18,396 nucleotides of DNA from an uncultured Collinsella sp. GTDB lineage: Bacteria > Actinomycetota > Coriobacteriia > Coriobacteriales > Coriobacteriaceae. The notes below the pieces were generated by a model that did no database searches, was not told the DNA's origin, and worked only from the letters and a program-made list of their open reading frames with translations. Shown here in pieces: positions 1,008-15,212 of this stretch; position 1 is the first letter of the stretch, and the number at the start of each line of letters is the position of its first letter. The position numbers and the translations under genes are program-made. Location of the stretch: the NCBI GenBank assembly GCA_934646965.1, contig CAKUEZ010000034.1, positions 1 through 18,396 of the forward strand. Reading direction: 5' to 3'.

Positions 1008-4000
1008 CTAACGGCGCTTGCGGTACAGGACCGCGCCGCCCGCGACGGCCAGCGCGCCGATGCCGGCCATGGCAGCGAGCGCCTCGACCGGCAGGCTGCG
1101 GTCGCCGGTGTCGGGCATGCCGCCCCTGGATCCGTCGCCGCCGGAGCCGCCGCCGGAGCCGCTATCGGAACCGCCGCCCGGCGTGCCAGGGTTCCCGGGG
1201 GTGCCGGGGGTCCCGGGATCCTCGGCGTAGCTGTTGGTGAAGACCGGCGGCAGGCTGGCGTCGTCCTCGTAGGAGACCTTCGCCGACAGGTAACCCGTCT
1301 TGGTGCCGTCGGCCGCCTCGTCGCTCACCGTGACGACGATCTTGTGCACGGCCTTGTCGTAGGTCACATGCGCCTGGCCGTCGTCGACCTCGCTCACCGT
1401 GAAGGTGTAGGTGCCGGCCTGCTTGAAGGTCAGGGCGTCGAACGTGACGCTACCGTCCGCGGCGTTCTTGGCGGTCGACATGACCTTGCCGTCCCGGCTC
1501 TTGAGCTCAAAGCTAAACTGGCCCGCCTTGAGCTCGGCGCCCTTGAGCACCTTGGCGGCGCCCAGCTTGAGGGTGACGGGCGCGGCCTCGTAGCCGTTGG
1601 TGAAGGTCACCGAGGTGTCGCCCGTGGGATTGCCCTCGGCATCCACAAGCTCGTGATTGACGGTGAGTTTGCCGTTGCCGGCATCGGTGACCGTCGTGTG
1701 CACGCGGTGGATCGCCCTGTCGTAGGTCACGCCGCCCGCCGTGCCGGTGACCTCGCGCAGCTCGTAGCTGTGCGAGCCGGGCGCGGTGTAGGGGATGGAG
1801 CTGAGCGCGACCGTGCCGTCGGCGGCGTTCTTACCTGTCGCCGCGACGCTCTCGCTGCCGTCGGCGGCGATCTCGACCAGCTGGAACTCGAACTCGCCCT
1901 CGGCCAGGTCGCGGCCTTTGAGCTTCTTGCTCACCTTGATCTGGTCGGTGACAAAGCTCGGCGTCGGGTCCACGCCGTAGGTGTTGGTGAACTCGAACGC
2001 GCCCTTGCCCTTGGGCGTACCCTCAGCGGGCAGGACCTCCGCGACGAGCGCGCCCTTGTTGGTGTCCTCGACGACCTTGACCGTGAAGGTCCTGGTCGAC
2101 GTCGCGTCGTTAACCACGCCGTCGACCGAGCCGGACTCGCTCACCCGGTAGGCGAACGTCTTGGTGCGCATGCCGTCGCCGTCGATCTCGACGTCATCGA
2201 GGTCGCTCGGCTGCCTGAACGTGACGTGGCCCAGCACGACGTTGCCGGCGGCGTCGTTGGTCGCCTCGGTCACCGTCTTGCCGGAGGCGTCGACCGGTGC
2301 GGGCGCGCCGCCCAGCGGCTCAATCTTGAAGGTGTACTTGTCCGCGATGTCGGCTTGCGTCAGGCCAAGGCCGGCCTGGCTGAGCGCCAGCGTCTTGGTG
2401 CCCGCGAGGTCGACCGTCGCCTCGCCGGCACTATAGCCGTTCACGAACGACAGCTTACCGTCGGAGTCCTCGGGGTAGACCACGGCCACATCCAGCCCGC
2501 CCTTGCCGTTATCGGTCGCCTGGACCGTGATGTCGAAGCTCGACGCGGTCGCCGTCACGCCCTTGGGCAGTGCCGCCGTGTCCTCGGAAACGGTATAGGA
2601 GATGGACCAGAAGCCGTCGTCGATCCTGGTGGCGGTGCCGTCCGCCACCATCTGCTCGAGCGCGTCGGTGGTGTAGTCGATGCGCGAGAACGTGAGCTCC
2701 GCGGCCTCGCCATCGCCGGAGGCCCGGTTGGTCGCAGTCGCGACCTCGCTGCCGCGGGCATCGCGGACGGAGAACGAGAACTCGCCCGCCGCCGCGGGGC
2801 GGCCCGTCAGTGTCTTGGTGGCGTTGATGGCCACATTGCCCTCGCCGCCAAGCGTTCCGGTGGCCTCGTAGGAGTTCTCGAATGCGACCGTCACGGGCGC
2901 AGGCAGCTCCGCGATGTCATCGGCCGTCGAGACCTCGCTGCGGGCGGCCTCGACACCGTCCTTGACGACCGTGGTCGTGACCGTGAGCTTGCCCGTCGCT
3001 GCGTCGTAGCTGGGCGCAATGGTCACCGTGCGCGGCGCGGTGTCGTTGGTGTAGCCCTCGCCGCCGAGCTTGGTCTCGGCGACAGTGAAGCTGTAGGTCT
3101 TGCCCGCATCGGCGTTGGTGAACTTCACGTCGCCCTTTGCGGCACCGCCGATCAGGTCGACCAGGCCGGCCGCGCCGTCATCGGCCGCGGCCACGGCGTA
3201 GGCGTCCTTGCCGGTCTTGAGGCCGAGCTTGTCGGCCGTCTCGTCGTCGGCGGTCACGGTGAAGGCGAACTGCCCCGCCTCCATGGCACGGCCGGAGAGC
3301 GTCTTGGACAGGCGCACGCCCGCACGGGCAGAGTAGTCGAGCTCGGTCGTGTAGGTGTTGACGAAGTCGCCGCCGCTCACCTGCGCGATCGCGGGCGTCG
3401 AGGCCGTGAGGTTGCCGGAACCGTCGTCGGTCACGGTCACCGTCATCGTGGCGACGCGGCCGTCGTAGGACACTCCGGCGATGGCAGAGCCGTCATCGGG
3501 CTTGACCTCGCTCACCGCGTAAGTGAAGGTCTTGGCGCGCACGCGCTTGCCGCCAACCTCCGCGAACCCGGCGTCCTTGATATCGTTAAGCGTGTAGCGG
3601 ATAGAGCCGAAGTCGAAGGCGACCTTAGCGCCCGCCTTGGTTCCGGCGGCGGCCGTCACGCTGACGGTCTTGGAGCCGTCGACAGAGCCCTCGGGCATGG
3701 GGGCGCCGTCTTCGCCCGTGAGCGTGAACTGGAAGCTGTCGCCCTCCGCCCAGTCGCGGCCCTTAAGCGTCTTGGTGAAGAGCCCCGTGGTGGAGACGTC
3801 CCTGCCCTCGGTGGCCGTTCCGTACGTGTTGGTGAACGCCGCGGTCGCGCCGGCATCGGTCACGGCGCCCTCGGCCCCCTCGGCCGTGGTCGTGTAGCCC
3901 TCGGACGCGTCCTCGGTCACGGTGTAGCGCGCGCCCACGGGCAGGCCGGCGACGGTCTTCTTCTCGCCGTCCTTAAGCGTGAAGGTCGCCTTGCCGTCCG

Positions 4001-7000
4001 TGAACGTCACGGCGCCGCCGCCCTTGCCGAAGGTGCCGGAGACGGGCTCGCCGTCCCCGTCGGCCAGCGTGACGGTGAAGCCGAACTCGCGCTGGCTGTC
4101 GCCGTCGACGACCGTCTTCTTGACGGTGAGGCTGCCGGTCTTAGCGGTGTTGGTGAAGACTGCCGCCTCGACCGTGCTCTCGGCAGCATTACCGGCATCG
4201 TCGGTCAGCTGCGCAATCTTAGTCTTGGCAGTCAGCTTTCCGGCGCCGTCGTCGGTCACCGTGACGGTGGCGCGATAGGTGGCCTTCGAGAACGTGAGCG
4301 ACGCCTCGTCACCCGCCCGCTCGGCAATCACATAGGTATAGGTACCGGGCTTGGTGTACTCGATGGTGCCGAAGTTGCCGACCTGAACGTCCTTCTTCAG
4401 CGTAATCGTCGCCAAGCCATCCTTGGCGCCATCGGGCATGGGCGCCTCGCCCTCGGCAGTCAGCGTCATAGTAAAGACATCCGCCTTAGTCCAGTTGCGA
4501 CCGGAGATCTTCTTTTGGACCTTGAAGGCGTTTTCCAGCTTCGTGGACTCCACGCTGTAGACGTTGGTGAAGCCGACCTGCGTCTCCTTTCCGACGGTGC
4601 CCGTCTTGGAGTTCGCCTTATCGGCAACCGTAAAGCCGTCCTCGCTCGTCATGAGGTTGCCCTTGGAGTCGAGCTCCTGCACCTCGCAGTGCGCGCCCGT
4701 GGGCACGGTAACCGTCACGGAGCCTCCGGCCTTGAGCACGATGGTGTCCCCGCTCTTGATCTGTCCGCTTACATAGGTGCCGTTGGCGCCGCTGGGGCGA
4801 CCGGTGTACGCAAAGGTACCGGCAAGAGGCGTTGTGCCATCGGCCTGATAGAGCAGGACCTTAAAGGTAAATGCCTTGTTGGGCGCGGTGATGCCTTCGG
4901 CAGCCGTGACCGTCTTGCTCAACGTCAAGCGACCGTCAGAGACCTCATCGGTGGTGGTGTTGGTCTTGACGGCAGGGTTGTTGCCGATCTTCACCGACGC
5001 CTGGTTGGAAATGTCACCCGATGCGCCGCCGCTCTTAAATGCATCCTCGGTCACGCGGACCTTAAACTGGACCGTGCCCTCCTTGCCGGCGGGAACATCC
5101 GTCAACGTCCAGGTGAGGTTGCCGTCGTTGTCCTTGGATGCGACATCCGCATGGTCGCCCGCGAACTCCACGAACTTGGTCCCCGCGGGAACGGCATCGG
5201 AGACCGTCACCGTAGCCTGCTTGTTCTCGGTGTTCTTGTAGCCGATGGTATAGGTGAGCTCATCGCCCAGCGCCACACCCGAGCCCGTCGTATCCTGAGC
5301 ATCGCTCTCGGACTTCTTGGGCACGTAGTTAGTCGTGGTGCCGGCATAACTCCTGCCACCGACCTTAACGGTGGCAGTGTTGTTGACGGTACCGACCGCA
5401 CCCTGGTCACCATTCACGGCGTCCTCGGTAATCTTGACGCGCACGCGCACCGAACCGTGGCTGCCCGCAGGCTGCTTGCCCAGGCTCCACGTGAGCAACT
5501 GGCCGTCCGCGGCGCCCTTATCGGCGTTCTCGCCCTCAAAGGCCTCGAACACAACGCCCGTGGGCAGCTTGTCGGTCACGGTCACATCGGCCGGAACCAG
5601 ATTGTCTTTGGCATCGGCCTCGGTGTTGACCCAGTTGATGGTGTAGACATAGGAGTCGCCCACGGAGAGCAGCTGCCCGTCGATATCCACACTGGGCTTT
5701 GCGACCGTGCCGATCGTCTTGACCTTATCACGCGTATTGTGGAAGACGATCTTGCCGTCCTTGGTACCATCGCGATAGGTCACCTTGGACGTAAGTTTGC
5801 CGTTGTTGTTGTCGGTCACCTCGAGCAGCACGCGACACGTCGCGGATGTGTCCACGGGGCGCACGCCCTCGGGCAGGTTGGCCAAGCGCTCCTTTGCCAC
5901 CAGGTTAAAGCTGTAGGTAGTGGTGTGGTCGGCATTGTGACGCTTGATGGCAATGCCATCGTTGACGGCGCCGGCAAGGTCGACCGTCTGCTCATGGGAT
6001 TCGCCGGGAGCGTTGCCGAGCTTAAAGTAAACCTTGCCGAAGTCGACCGTGGCTTTACCGTTATCGCTCGCCTGGGTCGTGCCCTCATCCATCTTTACGA
6101 GCGAGCCATCGGCTTCCTTCTCGGCATACAGGTCAAACGTATACTGGCCCGCCTCGATCTTGTCGCGGGAGTCCATTACCTTCTCGGCAGCAAGGCCCTC
6201 AAAGGTTCCGGTCGCGACGTAGCTGTTGGTAAAGGACACCTGGGCCTTGGCGGTACCGTCCTTGGAACTATAAGTCTTTGCATCATCGGTATCTTCGACA
6301 TTGTTGGCGTCATAGTGCTTGACCGTGGTCACGGTATAGAGCGAACCGTTATCGCGCTTCTTAACCGCAATCTCTACCTTCCAATAGGTGGGGTCGTACG
6401 TATAGCCGCCCTTGTCGCCGTCATTCTCGACAACCTTGTAGGTGAACGTCTTACCCACATCTTTCGTCGCAAAGGTCAGGCCACCCAAAATACCGGTGTG
6501 GGACGTGCCATCAGCCTGCGGCTCATCGTTGGTAACGGTGAGCTTGCCCTCATCCGCGCGCAGCAGCGCCTTAAGCTTTTCGGTTGAGGCGGTGTCGGCG
6601 GTGTCTTCGCCCGTCACCGTAAAGCCAAACATGCCGGCATGCAGGTCGTGCCCGTTAAGCGTCTTGACGATCTCCAGACCGCCCTGGAGCTCATAGCTCG
6701 TCGAGGCGCTATACCTATTGGTAAAGACGAAGCCTTCCGAACCAGTCTCGCGGTCGGCACGCGCCACGAGCTTGCCGCCCTCATCGGAAACCTTAACGGT
6801 CACGGTATTGGTGTGCGTGTCATACGTCCACCCGTTAAGGTCATTCGGAATCTGCTCATTCATAGCGAACGTATACGTGCCCGGCTTGTTGAAGGTGAGC
6901 TTTGAGAAGTCAATCTTATCGTGCTCGCCGTCGGCAAGGTCTTCCCTCGTCTGCTTCTGCTCGGTATAGCCGTTGCCCTTGCTCATCGAAGAGCCGGTGA

Positions 7001-10000
7001 TGAGCTTGCTGTCGATGGCAGCCTTGGTGGCGTCGTCAGCTGCGGTCATGGTAAAGGTGAACTTGTCCGGGGCATTGGCGCCGACAACAACCTTCGTCAC
7101 GGACGGAGTGTAGGTTGCCGCCTCGGTGACTGTATAGGTGTTCTTAAACTTGACCGTCGCGACACCGGTGGACGTTGTACCCGACGGATAAATCCACTGA
7201 CCCTCGAGCTCGTCGCCATTGTCACCCGGCTTGCTTACCGATGTCGTGACCCTGAGCGTGCCGTCGCCGTTATCCGCTACGACGGCCCTAACCGTATGGA
7301 CCGTGTTGTCGTACGTATAGCCCGCCGCCTTGTCGTCAATCTCGCTCACCGTATAGGTGAACGTCTTGCCGGCATCATTCTGAGTGAAGGTCAGTCCACC
7401 CGCAGGTACCAGACTCACGGTCTTGGGGGCGTCGGCCTCGACATTTGTGGTCTCAAAGACCTTGCCGTCCGCGGAAATGCCGACCTTGCTGGCAGATGTC
7501 TTGTCGGCAGGCTTGACGATATAGCGGAACGTGCTCTTGGGCGAGCCGAACACCGTCGCGTCCTTGGGGTACGTCAGTGTCTTCTCGATCTGCAGGCCGC
7601 CAGCGGCACCATAGTCGAGACTTGCCGCATAACGGTTCACAAACGAGACGGTAGGCGTCGTGGCGCCGGCCTCGCTTGCATCGTACTGCTGCACGTAGGT
7701 ATTCGGATCCTGCTTGAGCTCGGTAATCTTTTCGTCCGTCAACGCGCTCGCATTGGTGCCATCGCCCAGCAGCTTCGTCACACCCGCGCCCTTGAGCACG
7801 GTCGTCACGGTGTAGAGCTTGGCGGGGTCGTCCTTGCGTGCAAGAACCTTGACGAGCACGATGGCATCGCCGGTATAGCTGGTGTCATAGGTGTAGCCGG
7901 CAGCAGCAGGCTGGTTCTCGCGGATGCGATAGGCAAACGTATGGCCAAGGTCCTGCTCGGTGAGCTTGCGGGCAAAGAGCTTCTCCGCTCCGCTTGCGCC
8001 CACCACGGCACCGGACACGCCGGTCCCCGCCGCCTTGTTGGACAGGTTGGCCTCGGCGCCATCGACCGACGTCTGGACGCCGTTGTACCAAAGGCCCGTC
8101 ACGGCAAAGGTAAACTGGCCCGCGGTAGAGGCGCGACCCTGAAGGGTCTTGCTCACCGTCACGCCGCCAAAGGTGCCCGTCGCATGGTATGCGTTGGTAA
8201 AGGCGGCCTTGTCGGTTACGGCCTTGTCTGCATCGGAGGCACCGGTGTTGGCATAAGTCACGCTCGACACGTGCAGCTCGCCCGTGTGGTTGCCCGACTT
8301 GTCCAGATCGGTCACCACGACGATCGCACGTGCGGTGTGCTTGTCCATGGACATGCCCGCCTGGCCATCCTGCGCGGCATTCTCGGTGATATTAAAGCTA
8401 AAGGTACCTGCGCGTTTGAACGTCACGGCCGAGGCGGCTTCGGTGCCAAAGGCGAACGAGGCCACGCGTCCCGACTCGGGCGCATTGGCGACAGCTTGGT
8501 TAGTGCCGATAGCAACGGCTCCATCCGTTACTGCCTTTGCGGTGGTCTTACCCAGACCAGTTGCGCTGGCATCATCCGTAGCGGCAGCGAGGTTAAAGGT
8601 ATAGCTCTCGCCCTGGTTCCAGTCGCGACCGCTCAGGGTCTTTTGGCCCTGCAGGGTCACGCTCGTGGGCTCCACACTATATTTATTGGTAAAGGAAGGC
8701 GTGACGTTCGTTTTCAGCTGCTCTACCGAGCCGTTTGCCAAGACCTTGTAGTACTCGATCGAAGTCTGGACGCCGGCGCCCTGCTTGGCGTTGCGCACCA
8801 CGGCGTAATAGACCGATCCGTCGTAGGTCATGCCCGCGACACTGCCGGGATTCTCGGCAAACTTGTACACGTAGGCGCGTCCCGCATCCGCCCTGGCGGT
8901 ATAGGAGATCGCCGGCCAGGTCACCGTGCCGTCGGCGTTGTTGCCCACGGACGCGGTGTCGCCTTCGGCGCCCTGAGGCATGGGAGCCTTGATGCTCGGT
9001 ACGACCGTATCGGGATCGAACGCTGCATTGTCGTCCGCATAGCCGCCCACACGCTCGAGCTTAAAGCTAAAGGTGTTCTGGGCAAGCGGGAAGGTCCCGG
9101 CGTTGTCGACTAGGTTCTTTTGAGCATGGATGATGATGCTCCTCTCATGCTCGTCGTAACGGTTGGTGAAGGTCGCGGTCTTACCGGCGACCTCTGCGGT
9201 AGCCGGTTTGTCCGCGTCGTCACGCACCTGCTCCACCTTTACGCTCGTAACGACCAGAGCGCCAGCCTGGTTGTCCTCCACCACGACCTTCGCGGTATAG
9301 ACGGCGGCAGAGTAGCTTATACCGTCTGCCCCGGCATCGGAACCGGGGATAACCTCATTGATGGTATAGGTGTAGGTGCCCGGCTTGGCATACTCGATGG
9401 TTCCGAAGTTGCCGACCTGAGCGTGCCTGTTCAGCGTAATCGTGGACACGCCGTCCTTGGGCATGGGAGCGCCATGCTTGGGCGTAAGCTTCACGGTAAA
9501 GGTATCGTCATCGGTCCAATCGCGACCGATGAGCTCTTTCTTGACTTCCAGGAAATCTTTGCCCTCAAGCGTTACAGAGCTGGCGCTGTAGTTATTGGTG
9601 AACTCGAGCCTGTTGCTCGCGGGGATCTCTCCACCCAAGAGCGCGTCGATCGTACCCGTGATAGTGTTGCCAGTTCCGGACTGCTCCTCGCCGCCGGCCC
9701 TGCGGCTCACGAGCCTAAAGCCAGCCGGAAGCACCGACTCATCGGCAGAGCCGGTCACTGTGTTAACGATGCTCGCCAGCACGTTGCCGTTGGACTCCTC
9801 GTCCTTGGTGGTGAGCTCGCTCACGCTATACTTGTCGCCCTGCATAAGGTCGTATACGCGAATGGTCTCGCCGGCCTTGATGGAATGGGTGCTGCCGTTC
9901 ATGAGCGTAAAGGAATCGCCCACGGCATTGCCATTCGCATCGAATACGTGTGCCTCGTAGCCCTTCTCGGACTCCGGCAGGGTGAACTTAAACGTAAACG

Positions 10001-12977
10001 TCAGATCGTTGTTGTTCGCATCCTTGGTAGGCGCGGTAAGCTCAGCATCCGCCGTCACGGTCTTGGTCACTTGCAGGCGCGCCACGCGACGGTCGGTATA
10101 CTGCACGGCCGTTGCCGTGGTAAAGAGATGGTTGAGCTGGAGCGTGCCCAAGTTGGTACGAGTCTTGGAGGCATCATCGATATATGATGGGTCGTCCTCT
10201 TGGTAGAGGGCCATACGGTTGATGCCCGTATCGGCAAAGATCGTCGCCAGCTGGCCGTCGCGGACGCCCTTGTCCTCGACATAGCGCAGAACGGTCTTGG
10301 TGCCCTGAGTCGCCTTGTCATAGCGCATGTGCATCAAGTCATTTTTGAGCGAAGGCGTCACGCCCTCGGCGGTGCTCGTCTGGCCCCACGTCAGGTTACC
10401 CTTGACATCTGCACCAGTCACGCTCTGCAGCTTGCCCTTGATGTGTGTAAGCGTGTTGTCGATCGAGTCGGGAGAGCCAAACTGCGCCAACGAGGCAATC
10501 AGCGAACCCGGGCCACTCATGCTGCGCACGCCGTCGTTCTTCTCACCGGCATCCACGTACACGCCCGAATCGTCCACGATCACCTTGGTAATGGTGGAAT
10601 TTATCTCGTAGCCATCCGGGCTCAACGATTCGCGCAGATAGTACGTACCTTTGGTAAGAGGTGCGTGATTATTCGAATCGAGCGGGAAGCATGCAGCACC
10701 CTTAATCTCATACGGATAGGTCATGCCTTTTGCCTGCACGGTGTCATACGGCTCGGCACCCGCTTTTATGGCATAGGTTTTAGGACTATCGCCGGTAACG
10801 TCCTTGGCCTGGTACAGCTCAAACGTCGCGCCGTTCACGGGCTTGCCCGAGTCGTCGACCTTTTGCACAAACAGACGATTCTGGACGTTGGTGAGGTGAA
10901 TCACCGTAGAGAACTGCCTGTTTATCGACTGGTATTGAACCATGGAGGTGTTCTCCGTGGTTGCCTCTGCCAGAGACGATGCCGTGGTGTGATACACCGC
11001 CACGGTATATTCCGCCTTCGACTGGTCCGTCATCATGGCGGCGTACTTCTCGATATCTCCGGGCAGCGACCTAACCGTCACCTCGTAGTCGCCCTTGGTG
11101 TTGACGGCAAAGACGCTCGTGTCCGCCGATTTGGCAGCCTCGACCGCGCCAGCGATGCCGTGTTTGGAGCACAGTTTGTAGCCATCGAGCGGATTACCCG
11201 TGACTGCCGTCCATGCGTTTTCGCTTTTATGGTCCTCGCTCGCACCGGTGAGCTTGAGCACGACAGCGAAGGTCGTACCCGAGCTAATGGCGTGGCCCTT
11301 ATTGTCTACCGTCTCTTTGGACAGGGAGATGGTCTCCTTGGCGGCCAGATAACCACCGTTGAGCCACATGCGGCTGCCCGTCCACTGGCTGTCATCAGCC
11401 GTGGTGACCGTCGTTTGCGGCGCGACGACCACGCCACCCGAGCCACTCGCCGCAGCTTGCTTGTACTGCAAATGTAGCTCGCCTGGTGTTGCGGTGGTCG
11501 ACGAGGTCAGACTCGAACGGTATCCCGCGGGCAATTCTTCTTCTTTGAGTACAAAGTAATCGTGGCCCTCGGAATGCTGGCCATCGAACGAGAGCACAGA
11601 GCCGTCCTTCTTCATCAGAAGTACCAGTTGGCCATTGGCGTCCGTCGTGCCTTGGGCGATAGGCTCGGCCCCGCTTGGCACGGTCCATTTTTCATCGGAC
11701 TGATACAGAGCAAACTTGGCACCTTGGACTGCCTGGCCGTTCTGGTCGACCTTCTCGACCTCGGACGACGGCAGGGTGGTAAGGTTGAACTTGAGCGACA
11801 TGTTCGATGCGCCCGCGCCGCGCTCCAGATAGAAGAAGCTCAGCGTGTGCTTGGTGCTGTCGCGGAAGGTGCTGCCGGAGAAGTTGGTGGTATCCGCACC
11901 GGCAGCTTTGAACATCTCCTTGATGGTCGTGTTCTGAATTGTCTTTTCGGGGTCATTTGCGTTGTCGACATGGCCGACATGCACCGCGCCCGTAGCAAAG
12001 TTGATCTTGAGCGTCGCCTTCTCGTGAATGCCGCCCAAGTCACCCACGAGCACACCGTCGATATACACCCAGACATCATCGTCGCCCGAGAATTCAAAGA
12101 CCATGTCCTCGTTTTTGGTGGTCTTGCCGCGTGCAGGCTGGACAAACTCCGTGGTCATGGACATGCCAAAGTGGTGGTTGAGATCCGTGCTTCCATCAAC
12201 GATCTTTTTAGGGGAGAGGTTGTTGCCGTTCTCATCAAAAACCTTGCTTGCAGAGTCAAAGGGGAAGAACTGGCCCAGATTGGTTTCTTTGCTCGCATCG
12301 CCCTTATATACGCCCGCTTTATCGTAGACGTCAAAGGAATTGGTCGTGGGGTTATACACAGCGTAGTTGCCGTTAGAGCCGTTAGAGCCGTACGAGTCGT
12401 AAACGTAATAGCCATCCTTGAGCTGGAAGAGGCCTTTCACGTTGTTGTAGACGGCTTTGCCGTTCTGCCTACCATTTGCCTGGCTGGCATTGTTAAAGAG
12501 ATAAGCCAGCGACTCATCGGTGTACGTACCACTCGTGTTATAGGAGGTGTAGGTACCGGCATCAATCGCTGGATAACCATTTACCAGCATGTTCTTCACA
12601 AACGAAAGGCGTCCATAGCCATTGATGGCGCTTTTGCCCGTCCACCTGTTAATGCCCGTGCCAGCGCCACCATTGAACTTGAGCTGATGGTCTTTATTGA
12701 TACCGGTGTTGTTATTCTTGTTGTCGTTGTTTATGTTCTTCGAGCTATCGTTATCGCCATCGACAACCCAGTAGTCGAACAGGTTGACCGTGGTGCCGGT
12801 AGGATTCACCGTTTGCACGGTGTGGTCACTCACGGCAGCCGACGCACTCGTCGCACCAAACAAGAGAGCGCACGCCGCCAGCGGAACGGTCAAAACCCTT
12901 AGAGCGCGCTTGACTGTATTGGTTTTTTCGCCAAAAAGCTCCAGCTTTTCTTGAGCTCTCGCACATACGCGATTCAT
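1008..12977 (-). CDS. giant LPXTG-type cell-wall-anchored surface protein with fibro-slime head and about 15 Spy0128-like isopeptide modules
   Basis: One uninterrupted frame of 3990 codons (3989 residues plus TAG). The ATG at 12977 is chosen because GGGGAGG lies about seven bases upstream; a TTG at 12992 in the same frame has no such site. Order of parts: signal peptide (1-47, ASA cleavage), Asn/Gly/Tyr-rich head and fibro-slime core (about 60-400), SpaA-like modules (about 403-508 and 698-812), a Lys/Glu/Asn-type beta module (about 965-1130), eight Spy0128-like modules (1127-2416), two DUF11-like modules (about 2426-2681), seven further Spy0128-like modules interleaved with two other beta modules (to 3915), a Gly/Pro/Ser wall-spanning linker, and MPDTG (3954-3958), a hydrophobic segment and an RKRR tail. 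Inferred role: an extended covalently stabilised stalk presenting an N-terminal adhesive head. No sortase or pilin partner is visible, so anchoring by a housekeeping sortase is likely. It could instead be the tip or ancillary subunit of a pilus encoded elsewhere. Ligand unknown. Confidence 0.93.
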   Translation of the reverse strand: MNRVCARAQEKLELFGEKTNTVKRALRVLTVPLAACALLFGATSASAAVSDHTVQTVNPTGTTVNLFDYWVVDGDNDSSKNINNDNKNNNTGINKDHQLKFNGGAGTGINRWTGKSAINGYGRLSFVKNMLVNGYPAIDAGTYTSYNTSGTYTDESLAYLFNNASQANGRQNGKAVYNNVKGLFQLKDGYYVYDSYGSNGSNGNYAVYNPTTNSFDVYDKAGVYKGDASKETNLGQFFPFDSASKVFDENGNNLSPKKIVDGSTDLNHHFGMSMTTEFVQPARGKTTKNEDMVFEFSGDDDVWVYIDGVLVGDLGGIHEKATLKINFATGAVHVGHVDNANDPEKTIQNTTIKEMFKAAGADTTNFSGSTFRDSTKHTLSFFYLERGAGASNMSLKFNLTTLPSSEVEKVDQNGQAVQGAKFALYQSDEKWTVPSGAEPIAQGTTDANGQLVLLMKKDGSVLSFDGQHSEGHDYFVLKEEELPAGYRSSLTSSTTATPGELHLQYKQAAASGSGGVVVAPQTTVTTADDSQWTGSRMWLNGGYLAAKETISLSKETVDNKGHAISSGTTFAVVLKLTGASEDHKSENAWTAVTGNPLDGYKLCSKHGIAGAVEAAKSADTSVFAVNTKGDYEVTVRSLPGDIEKYAAMMTDQSKAEYTVAVYHTTASSLAEATTENTSMVQYQSINRQFSTVIHLTNVQNRLFVQKVDDSGKPVNGATFELYQAKDVTGDSPKTYAIKAGAEPYDTVQAKGMTYPYEIKGAACFPLDSNNHAPLTKGTYYLRESLSPDGYEINSTITKVIVDDSGVYVDAGEKNDGVRSMSGPGSLIASLAQFGSPDSIDNTLTHIKGKLQSVTGADVKGNLTWGQTSTAEGVTPSLKNDLMHMRYDKATQGTKTVLRYVEDKGVRDGQLATIFADTGINRMALYQEDDPSYIDDASKTRTNLGTLQLNHLFTTATAVQYTDRRVARLQVTKTVTADAELTAPTKDANNNDLTFTFKFTLPESEKGYEAHVFDANGNAVGDSFTLMNGSTHSIKAGETIRVYDLMQGDKYSVSELTTKDEESNGNVLASIVNTVTGSADESVLPAGFRLVSRRAGGEEQSGTGNTITGTIDALLGGEIPASNRLEFTNNYSASSVTLEGKDFLEVKKELIGRDWTDDDTFTVKLTPKHGAPMPKDGVSTITLNRHAQVGNFGTIEYAKPGTYTYTINEVIPGSDAGADGISYSAAVYTAKVVVEDNQAGALVVTSVKVEQVRDDADKPATAEVAGKTATFTNRYDEHERSIIIHAQKNLVDNAGTFPLAQNTFSFKLERVGGYADDNAAFDPDTVVPSIKAPMPQGAEGDTASVGNNADGTVTWPAISYTARADAGRAYVYKFAENPGSVAGMTYDGSVYYAVVRNAKQGAGVQTSIEYYKVLANGSVEQLKTNVTPSFTNKYSVEPTSVTLQGQKTLSGRDWNQGESYTFNLAAATDDASATGLGKTTAKAVTDGAVAIGTNQAVANAPESGRVASFAFGTEAASAVTFKRAGTFSFNITENAAQDGQAGMSMDKHTARAIVVVTDLDKSGNHTGELHVSSVTYANTGASDADKAVTDKAAFTNAYHATGTFGGVTVSKTLQGRASTAGQFTFAVTGLWYNGVQTSVDGAEANLSNKAAGTGVSGAVVGASGAEKLFARKLTEQDLGHTFAYRIRENQPAAAGYTYDTSYTGDAIVLVKVLARKDDPAKLYTVTTVLKGAGVTKLLGDGTNASALTDEKITELKQDPNTYVQQYDASEAGATTPTVSFVNRYAASLDYGAAGGLQIEKTLTYPKDATVFGSPKSTFRYIVKPADKTSASKVGISADGKVFETTNVEADAPKTVSLVPAGGLTFTQNDAGKTFTYTVSEIDDKAAGYTYDNTVHTVRAVVADNGDGTLRVTTSVSKPGDNGDELEGQWIYPSGTTSTGVATVKFKNTYTVTEAATYTPSVTKVVVGANAPDKFTFTMTAADDATKAAIDSKLITGSSMSKGNGYTEQKQTREDLADGEHDKIDFSKLTFNKPGTYTFAMNEQIPNDLNGWTYDTHTNTVTVKVSDEGGKLVARADRETGSEGFVFTNRYSASTSYELQGGLEIVKTLNGHDLHAGMFGFTVTGEDTADTASTEKLKALLRADEGKLTVTNDEPQADGTSHTGILGGLTFATKDVGKTFTYKVVENDGDKGGYTYDPTYWKVEIAVKKRDNGSLYTVTTVKHYDANNVEDTDDAKTYSSKDGTAKAQVSFTNSYVATGTFEGLAAEKVMDSRDKIEAGQYTFDLYAEKEADGSLVKMDEGTTQASDNGKATVDFGKVYFKLGNAPGESHEQTVDLAGAVNDGIAIKRHNADHTTTYSFNLVAKERLANLPEGVRPVDTSATCRVLLEVTDNNNGKLTSKVTYRDGTKDGKIVFHNTRDKVKTIGTVAKPSVDIDGQLLSVGDSYVYTINWVNTEADAKDNLVPADVTVTDKLPTGVVFEAFEGENADKGAADGQLLTWSLGKQPAGSHGSVRVRVKITEDAVNGDQGAVGTVNNTATVKVGGRSYAGTTTNYVPKKSESDAQDTTGSGVALGDELTYTIGYKNTENKQATVTVSDAVPAGTKFVEFAGDHADVASKDNDGNLTWTLTDVPAGKEGTVQFKVRVTEDAFKSGGASGDISNQASVKIGNNPAVKTNTTTDEVSDGRLTLSKTVTAAEGITAPNKAFTFKVLLYQADGTTPLAGTFAYTGRPSGANGTYVSGQIKSGDTIVLKAGGSVTVTVPTGAHCEVQELDSKGNLMTSEDGFTVADKANSKTGTVGKETQVGFTNVYSVESTKLENAFKVQKKISGRNWTKADVFTMTLTAEGEAPMPDGAKDGLATITLKKDVQVGNFGTIEYTKPGTYTYVIAERAGDEASLTFSKATYRATVTVTDDGAGKLTAKTKIAQLTDDAGNAAESTVEAAVFTNTAKTGSLTVKKTVVDGDSQREFGFTVTLADGDGEPVSGTFGKGGGAVTFTDGKATFTLKDGEKKTVAGLPVGARYTVTEDASEGYTTTAEGAEGAVTDAGATAAFTNTYGTATEGRDVSTTGLFTKTLKGRDWAEGDSFQFTLTGEDGAPMPEGSVDGSKTVSVTAAAGTKAGAKVAFDFGSIRYTLNDIKDAGFAEVGGKRVRAKTFTYAVSEVKPDDGSAIAGVSYDGRVATMTVTVTDDGSGNLTASTPAIAQVSGGDFVNTYTTELDYSARAGVRLSKTLSGRAMEAGQFAFTVTADDETADKLGLKTGKDAYAVAAADDGAAGLVDLIGGAAKGDVKFTNADAGKTYSFTVAETKLGGEGYTNDTAPRTVTIAPSYDAATGKLTVTTTVVKDGVEAARSEVSTADDIAELPAPVTVAFENSYEATGTLGGEGNVAINATKTLTGRPAAAGEFSFSVRDARGSEVATATNRASGDGEAAELTFSRIDYTTDALEQMVADGTATRIDDGFWSISYTVSEDTAALPKGVTATASSFDITVQATDNGKGGLDVAVVYPEDSDGKLSFVNGYSAGEATVDLAGTKTLALSQAGLGLTQADIADKYTFKIEPLGGAPAPVDASGKTVTEATNDAAGNVVLGHVTFRQPSDLDDVEIDGDGMRTKTFAYRVSESGSVDGVVNDATSTRTFTVKVVEDTNKGALVAEVLPAEGTPKGKGAFEFTNTYGVDPTPSFVTDQIKVSKKLKGRDLAEGEFEFQLVEIAADGSESVAATGKNAADGTVALSSIPYTAPGSHSYELREVTGTAGGVTYDRAIHRVHTTVTDAGNGKLTVNHELVDAEGNPTGDTSVTFTNGYEAAPVTLKLGAAKVLKGAELKAGQFSFELKSRDGKVMSTAKNAADGSVTFDALTFKQAGTYTFTVSEVDDGQAHVTYDKAVHKIVVTVSDEAADGTKTGYLSAKVSYEDDASLPPVFTNSYAEDPGTPGTPGNPGTPGGGSDSGSGGGSGGDGSRGGMPDTGDRSLPVEALAAMAGIGALAVAGGAVLYRKRR
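1011..1118 (-). other. C-terminal sortase sorting signal of the giant protein
   Basis: The last 36 residues are MPDTG (3954-3958), a short spacer, a hydrophobic run ending GGAVLYR, and the basic tail RKRR. This is the standard sortase substrate layout with Met in place of Leu at the first motif position. It is preceded by a PGTPGTPGNPGTPGG-type and Ser/Gly-rich linker that would cross the peptidoglycan. Confidence 0.9.
1230..4575 (-). other. distal array of isopeptide modules (seven Spy0128-like plus one or two Cna-B/DUF5979-like)
   Basis: Each module has the family's three marks: a Lys near the first strand (KTL, KKL or similar), a central Glu (Y-x-V-x-E), and a closing F-x-N-x-Y whose Asn is the bond acceptor. 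Closing Asn codons lie near 4150, 3360, 2875, 2440, 1985, 1597 and 1235. The module ending near 3830 is shorter and resembles DUF5979/Cna-B-type folds. All seven Spy0128-like copies keep Lys, Glu and Asn, so spontaneous intramolecular bonds are expected in each. The module calls are by eye. Confidence 0.75.
4935..5700 (-). other. pair of DUF11-like repeats inside the stalk
   Basis: Two tandem modules show the DUF11 pattern: GDSYVYTINWVN or GDELTYTIGYKN, then VTVTDKLPTG or VTVSDAVPAG, then LTWSLGKQPAG or LTWTLTDVPAG, and a closing NNTATVKV or SNQASVKI strand. They lie at about residues 2426-2681 and separate the two isopeptide arrays. DUF11 domains are common in bacterial surface stalks; the second copy runs into another Lys/Glu/Asn beta module (to about 4548). 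Confidence 0.75.
5730..9600 (-). other. proximal array of eight Spy0128-like isopeptide modules
   Basis: Eight modules follow one another at about residues 1127-2416. Their closing F-x-N motifs lie near 9165, 8690, 8195, 7640, 7145, 6720, 6228 and 5740. Lys (for example KKELIGRDW, KTLSGRDW, KTLQGR), Glu (INEV, FAEN, ITEN, VSEI, MNEQ and similar) and Asn (FTNRY, FTNKY, FKNTY, FHNTRD) are retained in all eight. These resemble the Streptococcus pyogenes pilin Spy0128/FctA domain, which forms Lys-Asn bonds helped by Glu. Confidence 0.75.
10545..10885 (-). other. second SpaA-like prealbumin module
   Basis: Residues about 698-812 run from FVQKVDDSGKPVNGATFELY to YYLRESLSPDGYEIN and a closing VIVDDSGVYV strand. 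This is the SpaA/Cna-B pattern of K-x-D-x-G-x-x-x-x-GA-x-F-x-L-Y plus an E-x-x-x-P-x-GY motif. Confidence 0.75.
11455..11770 (-). other. first SpaA-like prealbumin module
   Basis: Immediately after the fibro-slime core, residues about 403-508 contain VEKVDQNGQAVQGAKFALYQ and later VLKEEELPAGYRSS. This is the same SpaA signature, with Lys and Glu in the positions used for isopeptide bonds. Confidence 0.75.
11780..12270 (-). other. fibro-slime domain (head of the giant protein)
   Basis: Residues about 235-399 include FPFDSASKVF, LNHHFGMSMTTEF, FEFSGDDDVWVYIDGVLV, GDLGGIHE, and a closing LSFFYLERGAGASNMSLKF. These blocks are characteristic of the fibro-slime family, a PA14-like beta-sandwich found in slime-mould and bacterial surface proteins. 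The acidic GDDDVW and D-x-GG-x-H motifs suggest a metal- or carbohydrate-binding surface; that role is inferred. Confidence 0.85.
12837..12977 (-). other. signal peptide of the giant protein
   Basis: The first 47 residues have a long basic N-region (…TVKRALR), a hydrophobic core (VLTVPLAACALLFG) and an ATSASA cleavage site, as expected for Sec export. The extended N-region is typical of large wall proteins of Gram-positive bacteria. Confidence 0.85.
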
Positions 12978-12995
12978 GAAGGCCCTCCCCAATCC

Positions 12996-13043
12996 ATGAG
13001 GACGGCAAGCAGTGGCTCGCTATATGTGTGTCGTCGTCCTCAT
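12996..13043 (-). promoter_or_regulatory. 5'-UTR hairpin just upstream of the surface-protein ribosome site
   Basis: A 9-bp perfect inverted repeat (12996-13004 with 13035-13043, ATGAGGACG / CGTCCTCAT) with a 30-base loop falls between the predicted start of transcription and the Shine-Dalgarno site. It could affect mRNA stability or ribosome access. The ATG at 12997 within it opens a 7-codon frame (MDWGGPS) whose TGA overlaps the gene's ATG, but that ATG has no ribosome site. Confidence 0.4.
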
Positions 13044-13050
13044 CGATGCA

Positions 13051-13081
13051 AATATACGCCCCCCCCCGCGCAGAAACGCAA
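13051..13081 (-). promoter_or_regulatory. candidate promoter of the giant gene containing a G9 homopolymer
   Basis: On the minus strand TTGCGT (13081-13076) and TATATT (13056-13051) are 19 bases apart, and nine consecutive G residues (13067-13059) occupy the spacer. The -10 match is good. The 19-base spacing is two longer than optimal, so loss of two G would give 17. The leader would be about 65-70 nt. This is the best promoter found upstream of the gene. Confidence 0.55.
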
Positions 13082-13104
13082 GGCGGGACATCGCTATATG
13101 CTTA

Positions 13105-13119
13105 AAATTGTAGCAATTT
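13105..13119. promoter_or_regulatory. palindromic operator-like site upstream of the surface-protein promoter
   Basis: AAATTGTAGCAATTT is a perfect 6+3+6 inverted repeat, with its nearer edge 24 bp from the candidate -35. The partial sequence GTAGC(T)AATTTGGG recurs at about 13202-13214. Position and symmetry suit an activator or repressor site; no protein can be assigned. Confidence 0.35.
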
Positions 13120-13295
13120 GGGTGACCCGAAATTTCGCCTCGGGTTGCCACTCAGGCTCAAAATCGAACCACTCGCGCCATCGACATACCCCAGTAGCAA
13201 AGTAGCTAATTTGGGACGGGGCTATTTTGACTACTCGGCCAAACCGGGCTCCCGACCCAAGACCCAAGGCGACCAGCCTCGGATAGCGATTCTCG

Positions 13296-13364
13296 AAGTT
13301 GCGGTGGAATAGTTCCTGTTTTTGCTGCCTGAGCCGCCAAACAGGAACTATTCCACCGCAACTT
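13296..13364. repeat. perfect 26-bp inverted repeat (hairpin element)
   Basis: Arms 13296-13321 and 13339-13364 are exact reverse complements; the left arm begins AAGTTGCGGTGGAATAG. They enclose a 17-base loop. It lies 16 bp after the stop of the tadA-glycerate kinase gene and about 320 bp before the surface-protein gene. No U tract follows either arm, so it looks more like a palindromic intergenic repeat than a textbook terminator, though it may stop or protect the upstream transcript. The remainder of 13120-13295 shows only short palindromes (for example CGAAATTTCG at 13128-13137) and no gene. Confidence 0.85.
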
Positions 13365-13379
13365 ATTGGGGGATGGATT

Positions 13380-15161
13380 TTAGAGGCGGGCGAGGTCGTA
13401 GGCTTGGGCGGCTGACTCGCCGGCGCAGATGAGGTTGGTTGTGGCTTCCCGTGGTTCGAGTGCTTGGTCGAGGGACATAGGCTTGCGGCAAATCGGCAGT
13501 ACCAAGTCGATACCTTGCTCGTACACCGCGTTCAGGTTGTCAGCACGGCCGCCCACGACGGCGGCCACCGGCTTGCCATAGCGCTTGGCACGGCGAGCCA
13601 CGCCCACCGGTGCCTTACCGGCGGCGGACTGCTCATCCATATTGCCCTCGCCCGTTATGACCAGATCGACATCGCGCACGCGCTCGTCAAACCCCACAAG
13701 GTCGAGCACCGTTTCCACGCCCGAGCGCAGCTCCGCACCGAGTGCCAGCAGCGCAGCACCCAAACCACCCGCCGCACCCGCGCCGGGCACGCCGAGGACC
13801 GAACCAAATGTCCGTGTGCCCTCGGGCGTGCGCAGCAACCCCTGAGTCCGAACCTCGGCAATCGCAGCGTCGAGCAGGCGACCGTAGCCGATCATCCAGC
13901 TGTCGTATCTACGCAGTACCTCGGCATCCCCCGTCGGCAGACCCTTCTGTCCGCCGAACACCGCCAGTGCGCCACGACGTCCCACAAGCGGATTCTCGAC
14001 ATCGGAAAGCACAACGATACGAGCGCCATCCAGCGCCTGCATCGCGGGCGTCAGGTCAACACCGGCCACACGCTCAAGACCCGCGAGCCCCGGCGCAACA
14101 TCGCAACCGTGCTCATCAAGCAGACGCGCGCCGAGCGCCCGCAGCATACCGGCGCCGCCATCGTTGGTGGCACTGCCGCCCAAACCAATATAGATAGTCT
14201 TTGCACCCGCGCGAACCGCACGAAGCATGAGCTCGCCCACGCCATAGGTCGAAGCTGTCAGAGCCGCCGATTCCGTACAGGGTGAATACCCAATGCCTGC
14301 CGCCTCGGCCATCTCGATAACCGCAGACGCGCGCCCGGCATCTACCAGCATCCGGGCAGACACGCGCTCGTTCAAGGGGCCTGCCACCTCGCAGGTCACG
14401 ACCTCGCCGCCGCACGCGGCGACAGCGTCGAGCGTTCCCTCGCCACCATCTGCCAGCGGCAATGCGCACACCTGGGCATCGGGCCACGCGCGGCACACGC
14501 CCTCGGCAACTGCTTCTTCTGCCTGCGTGCTTGAAACGCTGCCCTTAAAGGAGTCAATCGCCAACAGCACGCGACGAGGCCGGCGCTGCGCGGCGCCAAA
14601 GTCGACCGTCTCAACGGCAATATCTCCGGCATCCGCAAGTGCCGCGGCGTGAGCGGCATGCGCGTCAAGATTGGACTCACAGCCGCAAGCAGCCCCGTCC
14701 GCTCCACGCAAGCCGGCAAAATAGCTACTCAGCAGCTCGCGGCACTCATCCGCCAACACACCGGCGGCCACGTTAAACCGATGATTCAGGCGCGAATCGG
14801 CATTGAGGTCGTACAGAGACCCCAGCGCGCCCGCCTTGGCATCGGCCGCACCATACACGCAGCGCCCAACGCGCGCGTTGACCATAAGGCCCGCGCACAT
14901 GCAGCAGGGCTCGAGCGTCACATAGACGGTGCAATCGGAAAGGCGCCATCGGCCGAACGCCTGAGCAGCGGCGCATAATGCCGCGAACTCGGCATGCGCT
15001 GAAGGATCCTGGTCAAGTTCGCGACGGTTATGCGCCCGCGCGACGATCTCGCCAGCACGCACCACCACGGCTCCGATGGGCACCTCGCCCACCGCCGCGG
15101 CAGCTCGTGCCTCCGCTAACGCCTCGCGCATGAACTTCTCGTCGATTCCGGTGCTCGTCAT
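13380..15161 (-). CDS. fusion of tRNA adenosine deaminase (TadA) and class I glycerate kinase
   Basis: 593 residues from the ATG at 15161, chosen because AGGGAAGG sits just upstream; a GTG at 15212 in frame would crowd the tRNA gene. Residues 1-150 are a TadA-type deaminase: zinc ligand and catalytic Glu in AHAEF (H56, E58) and PCCMC (C86, C89). TadA makes inosine at the wobble base of tRNA-Arg(ACG). A 45-residue Ala-rich linker follows, then from about 197 a glycerate kinase of the GlxK/GarK family: LLAIDSFKGSVSS, LPLADGGEGTLDA, GLGGSATNDGGAGMLRALGA and ITGEGNMDEQSAAGK, through to the C-terminus. That enzyme phosphorylates D-glycerate. The kinase part has no ribosome site of its own. Both halves appear complete. 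The pairing joins tRNA modification with carbon metabolism and has no obvious logic; a functional link is not implied. Confidence 0.9.
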   Translation of the reverse strand: MTSTGIDEKFMREALAEARAAAAVGEVPIGAVVVRAGEIVARAHNRRELDQDPSAHAEFAALCAAAQAFGRWRLSDCTVYVTLEPCCMCAGLMVNARVGRCVYGAADAKAGALGSLYDLNADSRLNHRFNVAAGVLADECRELLSSYFAGLRGADGAACGCESNLDAHAAHAAALADAGDIAVETVDFGAAQRRPRRVLLAIDSFKGSVSSTQAEEAVAEGVCRAWPDAQVCALPLADGGEGTLDAVAACGGEVVTCEVAGPLNERVSARMLVDAGRASAVIEMAEAAGIGYSPCTESAALTASTYGVGELMLRAVRAGAKTIYIGLGGSATNDGGAGMLRALGARLLDEHGCDVAPGLAGLERVAGVDLTPAMQALDGARIVVLSDVENPLVGRRGALAVFGGQKGLPTGDAEVLRRYDSWMIGYGRLLDAAIAEVRTQGLLRTPEGTRTFGSVLGVPGAGAAGGLGAALLALGAELRSGVETVLDLVGFDERVRDVDLVITGEGNMDEQSAAGKAPVGVARRAKRYGKPVAAVVGGRADNLNAVYEQGIDLVLPICRKPMSLDQALEPREATTNLICAGESAAQAYDLARL

Positions 15162-15176
15162 CGTTCGCCTTCCCTG

Positions 15177-15202
15177 TTGCAAATTCAAAACGATGCTATC
15201 AT
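15177..15202 (+). promoter_or_regulatory. possible promoter of tRNA-Ser
   Basis: TTGCAA (15177-15182) and TATCAT (15197-15202) lie just upstream of the tRNA, but the 14-base spacing is short. The 51 bp between the tRNA and the divergent tadA-kinase start must hold promoters for both directions. Confidence 0.3.
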
Positions 15203-15212
15203 TACGACTCAC

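Follow-up and report, generated by a model that had tools for sequence, protein, structure and literature searches.

A length-variable poly-G tract at the start of a predicted giant adhesin gene in Collinsella: a candidate phase-variation switch

We observed that the gene for a giant predicted surface protein of an uncultured Collinsella sp. is preceded by an unbroken run of nine Gs, placed between putative −35 and −10 elements (Table 1), and that a G-run of another length occupies the same place in the close orthologs of two Collinsella aerofaciens genomes. We consider it highly likely that this locus is phase-variable, by whatever route. That the tract phase-varies the adhesin through promoter spacing in this lineage is the reading that we think probable, and for it we infer the use of this promoter, the effect of its spacing and switching in culture. 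The G9 run would then be prone to slippage and serve as the phase-variation tract of a giant sortase-type adhesin. Slippage during replication would add or remove Gs between the −35 and −10 elements, which stand 19 bases apart here and 20 apart in both orthologs. Promoter strength would change with this distance, and cells would differ in how much adhesin they make.

Table 1. Positions of the poly-G tract, the elements around it and the giant gene in the window (the whole 18,396-nucleotide stretch of DNA that was analysed).
Feature	Position	Strand	Basis
G9 homopolymer (C9 on the plus strand)	13059..13067	−	read directly
Putative −35 element TTGCGT	13076..13081	−	invariant in three genomes; 3/6 match to TTGACA
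Putative −10 element TATATT	13051..13056	−	invariant in three genomes; 5/6 match to TATAAT
Competing upstream extended −10 TGCTACAAT	13107..13115	−	own scoring; changed to TGCTACACT in L001
9-base inverted repeat, 5′ arm ATGAGGACG, presumed 5′ leader	13035..13043	−	sequence
9-base inverted repeat, 3′ arm CGTCCTCAT	12996..13004	−	sequence
RBS-like GGGGAGG	12984..12990	−	sequence; invariant in three genomes
Giant surface protein (3989 aa) with FctA/Spy0128-type isopeptide domains and an MPDTG end resembling a sorting signal	1008..12977	−	

Read on the minus strand from 13081 downward, the order is TTGCGT, TTCTGCGC, the nine Gs (13067–13059), CG and TATATT, which leaves a gap of 19 bases between the two hexamers with the G-run inside it. 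This confirms the arrangement claimed in a preliminary description of the same DNA. TTGCGT matches at only three of six positions, and other −10-like elements compete with the pair. Downstream, GGGGAGG ends six bases before the adhesin ATG (12977–12975, minus strand).

Is a tract of this length unusual in itself? It is the sole G or C run of at least six in the window. In first-order Markov simulations, a G9 or C9 was present in 302 of 2000 simulated windows, and in 104 of 200 shuffles the number of GGGGGGG matches equaled or exceeded that of the window; we therefore rejected the idea that the tract is statistically striking on its own. Unlike the tract alone, its conserved place combined with a changing length among relatives is not unremarkable.

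The protein matched the FctA domain in 15 stretches (E 1e-207; 678.6 bits against a cut-off of 22.1) and the streptococcal pilin isopeptide domain (strep_pil_rpt) in 10 stretches (356.4 bits), and SpaA and DUF7601 domains are also present. Judged by eye from the translation, its N-terminus is hydrophobic and of signal type, and its C-terminus is made up of MPDTG, a hydrophobic stretch and RKRR, the motif being LPXTG-like but not an exact match. Its anchoring to the wall is a prediction, and from its domains we take the protein to be a putative sortase-type wall adhesin. A sequence search of the PDB with its first 800 residues gave no matches. The open frame spans 3989 residues in the window, 4019 in one C. 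aerofaciens genome (G001) and 2894 in the other (G002), and such a difference in length among close relatives suggests a change in repeat number.

On the other side of the tract, a single 610-residue frame (13380–15212) combines a deaminase domain with a glycerate kinase domain, and this neighbor is kept in both orthologous loci at 87.5% and 88.4% identity. Beside it lies a long, near-perfect hairpin repeat (13297–13362), which occurs at 13 places in one Collinsella record of the plasmid collection; similar sequence adjoins G10 and G12 runs in two other loci (L032 and L037). Among plasmid records, this one Collinsella record matched by the dispersed repeat only, and another was a chance match (E 6). 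The promoter core had no matches in viral_contigs. In Rfam, 12800–13500 matched four times, each time a microRNA model placed on a perfect hairpin repeat, and no match reached its family's gathering score.

The two C. aerofaciens genomes are the nearest named relatives, and their orthologs showed 86% and 78% best-segment identity to a 326-residue query (genomes G001 and G002; promoter loci L001 and L002; gene loci L006 and L007). From −100 to −80, all three genomes are identical except for the length of the tract, which is G9 in the window and G10 in both orthologs, at the same place. Identity among the three is 95–100% at −80 to −60, 88–96% at −125 to −100 and 87–93% at −60 to −30, and it ranges by pair and segment from 76 to 96% over the first 990 coding bases, compared in four segments. 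Beyond −200, the window is 14–74% identical to either ortholog. The core bases match while the run is G9 or G10, and the core is therefore conserved while the tract varies in length between conserved flanks, in the three genomes compared. The preliminary description had proposed comparing the tract in related strains, where a fixed length would speak against a switch; in this sample of three, the length is not fixed. The promoter DNA matched three of 43 Collinsella genomes; the third match, in G038 (L005), was dropped as a chance hit, since by eye it falls inside an unrelated coding sequence.

How widely does the adhesin family carry such runs? With the first 659 residues as the query, matches were obtained in 18 of 43 Collinsella genomes and in 88 of 395 Coriobacteriales genomes. 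The 34 genes examined are 19 from the Collinsella search (21 loci, from which L025 and L026 were dropped as second pieces of the L021 and L023 genes) and 15 new ones among the best matches of the Coriobacteriales search. A run of 7–11 Gs is present at the 5′ end in 17 of them, the two orthologs included, with G always on the coding strand. The carriers comprise 10 of the 19 genes from the first search (L006–L013, L017 and L022) and 7 of the 15 from the second (L098, L099, L101, L105, L107, L108 and L110); the other 17 genes have no such run at the 5′ end within the fetched stretch. Together, the loci total 92,393 + 70,802 bases (163 kb, a figure in which the overlaps of two pairs count double). 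Apart from the 5′-end runs, they contain a single G or C run of at least seven, a C8 near the L098 tract. Because the 5′-end runs recur in half of the genes, both in and out of frame, this adhesin family very probably phase-varies by poly-G slippage, to judge from these sequences.

The position of the run differs within the family. In 12 of the 17 carriers, it falls within the N-terminal part of the coding sequence, close to the signal peptide, and in nine of these 12, a start codon with an RBS-like sequence stands upstream of it, with more than 1000 codons open past the run. At its native length, the run leaves two of the nine genes in frame (L012, G9; L105, G10) and seven out of frame (L008, G10; L009, G7; L010, G8; L011, G7; L013, G7; L101, G9; L108, G10). 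A possible second start, with a poorer ribosome-binding site, follows the run in L008–L013; therefore, being out of frame may not mean being fully off. For L022, L107 and L110, a simple script found no RBS-bearing start within 110 bases of the run. Signal peptides, ribosome-binding sites and the kinds of genes beside other tracts were assigned throughout by eye or by simple script. In the pairs L009/L012 and L010/L011, the flanks are near-identical and the run length is different.

In the remaining five carriers (L006, L007, L017, L098 and L099), the run precedes the start codon. L017, at 44% identity, has a TATAGT with a TGC extension, preceded at a distance of four bases by a G10, and a spacer-like arrangement therefore occurs in the family beyond the three orthologs. 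In L098 and L099, the run is without a clear −35/−10 pair around it; that of L098 is a G11 upstream of an RBS-bearing start, with no −10 directly after it. The part of the preliminary description that is supported is a length-variable poly-G tract at the 5′ end of a giant adhesin-like gene in a gut-type bacterium; the tie of the proposed switch to a promoter does not extend to the family, given the coding-region position in the 12 carriers.

There are 10 runs of at least nine Gs in G001 and 8 in G002, and 16 of them are not at the adhesin gene. By eye, four of the 16 fall in the N-terminal region of signal-peptide-type proteins and one between two pilin-like genes; one is at the end of a contig, two adjoin N gaps and seven are in other settings. 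The remaining one, a G11 in L070 (1501–1518; G001), stops seven bases short of the start codon (ATG) of a regulator-like membrane protein and may therefore overlap the ribosome-binding site. Across the 43 genomes, promoter-like G-run settings numbered 5 with a first pattern, against 4 in the reversed control, and 10 with a second pattern, against 4 in the control. A clear genus-wide enrichment was thus rejected, the excess being at most mild (10 versus 4). Three of the five first-pattern sites precede the giant isopeptide adhesin family, and five of the ten second-pattern sites precede a signal-peptide-type protein, judged by eye.

Some of these sites match one another between genomes. At about base 1500 of L094 and L095 (G036 and G042), TTGACT and TACGCT enclose a G9 and a G8, with spacers of 18 and 17 bases, and precede the same kind of signal-peptide protein in both genomes. 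In L088 and L093, again at about base 1500, a G9 and a G8 occupy corresponding positions between two pilin-like genes, with C on the coding strand. Overlapping G9 matches reach 566 in G031, 989 in G032 and 270 in G033, and in G008 very long G-runs occur in clusters; the excess in these four genomes possibly reflects sequencing artefacts.

Could the run lie in the 5′ leader of a transcript that starts further upstream, rather than in a promoter spacer? A strict sigma-70 scan of 12000–14200, restricted to spacers of 16–18 bases, returned no sites. By our own simple scoring, TGCTACAAT ranked first in the window, and TTGCGT-19-TATATT came next with a slightly lower score. TTGCGT with its 20-base spacer was outside the top ten of L001 and L002, where it was outscored by other pairs, the competitors being a TATAAT near −47 (TATAGC in the window) and a TATATT near −124. 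The pair singled out earlier as the best promoter is therefore present, but its rank as the best is insecure. Transcription from TGCTACAAT or another start would still leave the locus phase-variable, with the length of the run affecting translation, the fold of the leader or a short frame upstream instead of spacing. We regard this as unlikely, although both the score of TGCTACAAT and the setting of the L098 run speak in its favor. Conservation favors TTGCGT/TATATT because both hexamers are invariant, whereas TGCTACAAT has become TGCTACACT in L001. As for an upstream frame, there is an upstream ATG whose frame passes through the run, and in L002 the frame shared with the adhesin could stay open and join it at lengths other than its own; that ATG, however, is without a ribosome-binding site by eye, and in the window and L001 the shared frame terminates ahead of the adhesin ATG, which closes the coding-frame mechanism in these two. 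A coding-frame switch in the window of the kind suggested by L008–L013 was rejected for the same reason. With regard to folding, the inverted repeat sets in at the expected start of a transcript from TATATT, and the fold of 12970–13046 gives modest support in the window (z −2.34, with 4 of 200 shuffles as good); the folds of the orthologs, over a longer stretch that includes the tract, are weak (z −0.54 and −1.21).

The tract might also be the relic of an ancestral coding-frame switch, now non-coding and slipping with no effect on expression. The predominance of coding-region runs among the tract-bearing relatives would fit such an origin, as would the long spacers of all three promoter alleles (19, 20 and 20 bases). 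On the other hand, the region from −100 to −60 is 95–100% identical, against the 76–96% of the early coding bases, and flanks that are more conserved than the start of the gene are not expected of a relic. The distant homolog L017, too, has its run adjoining a −10-like element, and we consider the relic explanation quite improbable. Least of all do we expect the length differences to be homopolymer assembly errors around a tract of fixed length. All lengths come from assemblies, Illumina difficulties at G-tracts have been reported (PMC9187656), two of the other runs in the C. aerofaciens genomes abut N gaps, and three genomes contain hundreds of G9 matches. Nevertheless, many assemblies have a run at the start of the gene, 7–11 bases long and normally flanked, and errors in length would leave the clustering of runs at this place unexplained.

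Homopolymer switches of this general type are familiar. The Neisseria porA promoter carries a poly-G tract, and the Bordetella fim promoter has a poly-C near the −10 of a fimbrial gene; the Bordetella tract sets the distance to an activator site. In the poly-C of the Neisseria meningitidis opc promoter, C11 and C12 are reported to go with different levels of Opc (PMC3447861). The likeness lies in a homopolymer within the promoter of an adhesin gene whose length differs between variants; however, opc encodes a Gram-negative outer-membrane protein whose expression was measured, while ours is a predicted giant Gram-positive-type wall protein. In Cutibacterium (Propionibacterium) acnes, HPT_37 is described as C5 or C7 between −10 and −35, with expression differing between the two strains (PMC4746626). 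That tract is shorter than the tract in the window, and the gene after it encodes a putative ubiquinone/menaquinone methylase instead of an adhesin.

In Bifidobacterium breve, coding G-tracts are reported to govern the switching of sortase-dependent pili (bbr_0113 and bbr_1889), with the heterogeneity of tract length measured within the population, and the report also mentions, without giving detail at that point, other tracts within promoter spacers (PMC9187656). By analogy, the coding-frame placement in L008–L013, L101, L105 and L108 would resemble that of the B. breve pilus tracts. The tract in the window, unlike these, precedes the start codon and is not part of the reading frame; it belongs to a single giant isopeptide-repeat protein in a different class of bacteria. 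In the mostly non-subscription literature searched, we found no report of slipped-strand or homopolymer phase variation in Collinsella and none joining Coriobacteri-, phase variation and homopolymer; papers that mention both Collinsella and phase variation exist, each naming Collinsella one or two times. The type of mechanism is thus already known from Neisseria opc and the Bifidobacterium pili, and the Collinsella case was not found in that literature.

The more interesting result is that, within one Coriobacteriales adhesin family, some tract-bearing genes have the run ahead of the start and others have it within the reading frame. We lean slightly towards the view that Coriobacteriales, and Collinsella above all, run a poly-G phasome on giant isopeptide adhesins and other surface proteins, and that, in a single adhesin family, evolution has relocated the switch between the reading frame and the region ahead of the start. 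If so, the same on/off behavior would have been selected at different levels of expression. The family would offer a natural comparison of one gene across related species, in some of which the switch precedes the start while in others it falls inside the coding frame. Collinsella is a common genus of the human gut. If its giant surface proteins do switch by poly-G slippage, a single isolate would be a mixture of cells with different surfaces, of which an assembly records one state, and poly-G switching would bear both on contact with the host and on the comparison of strains.
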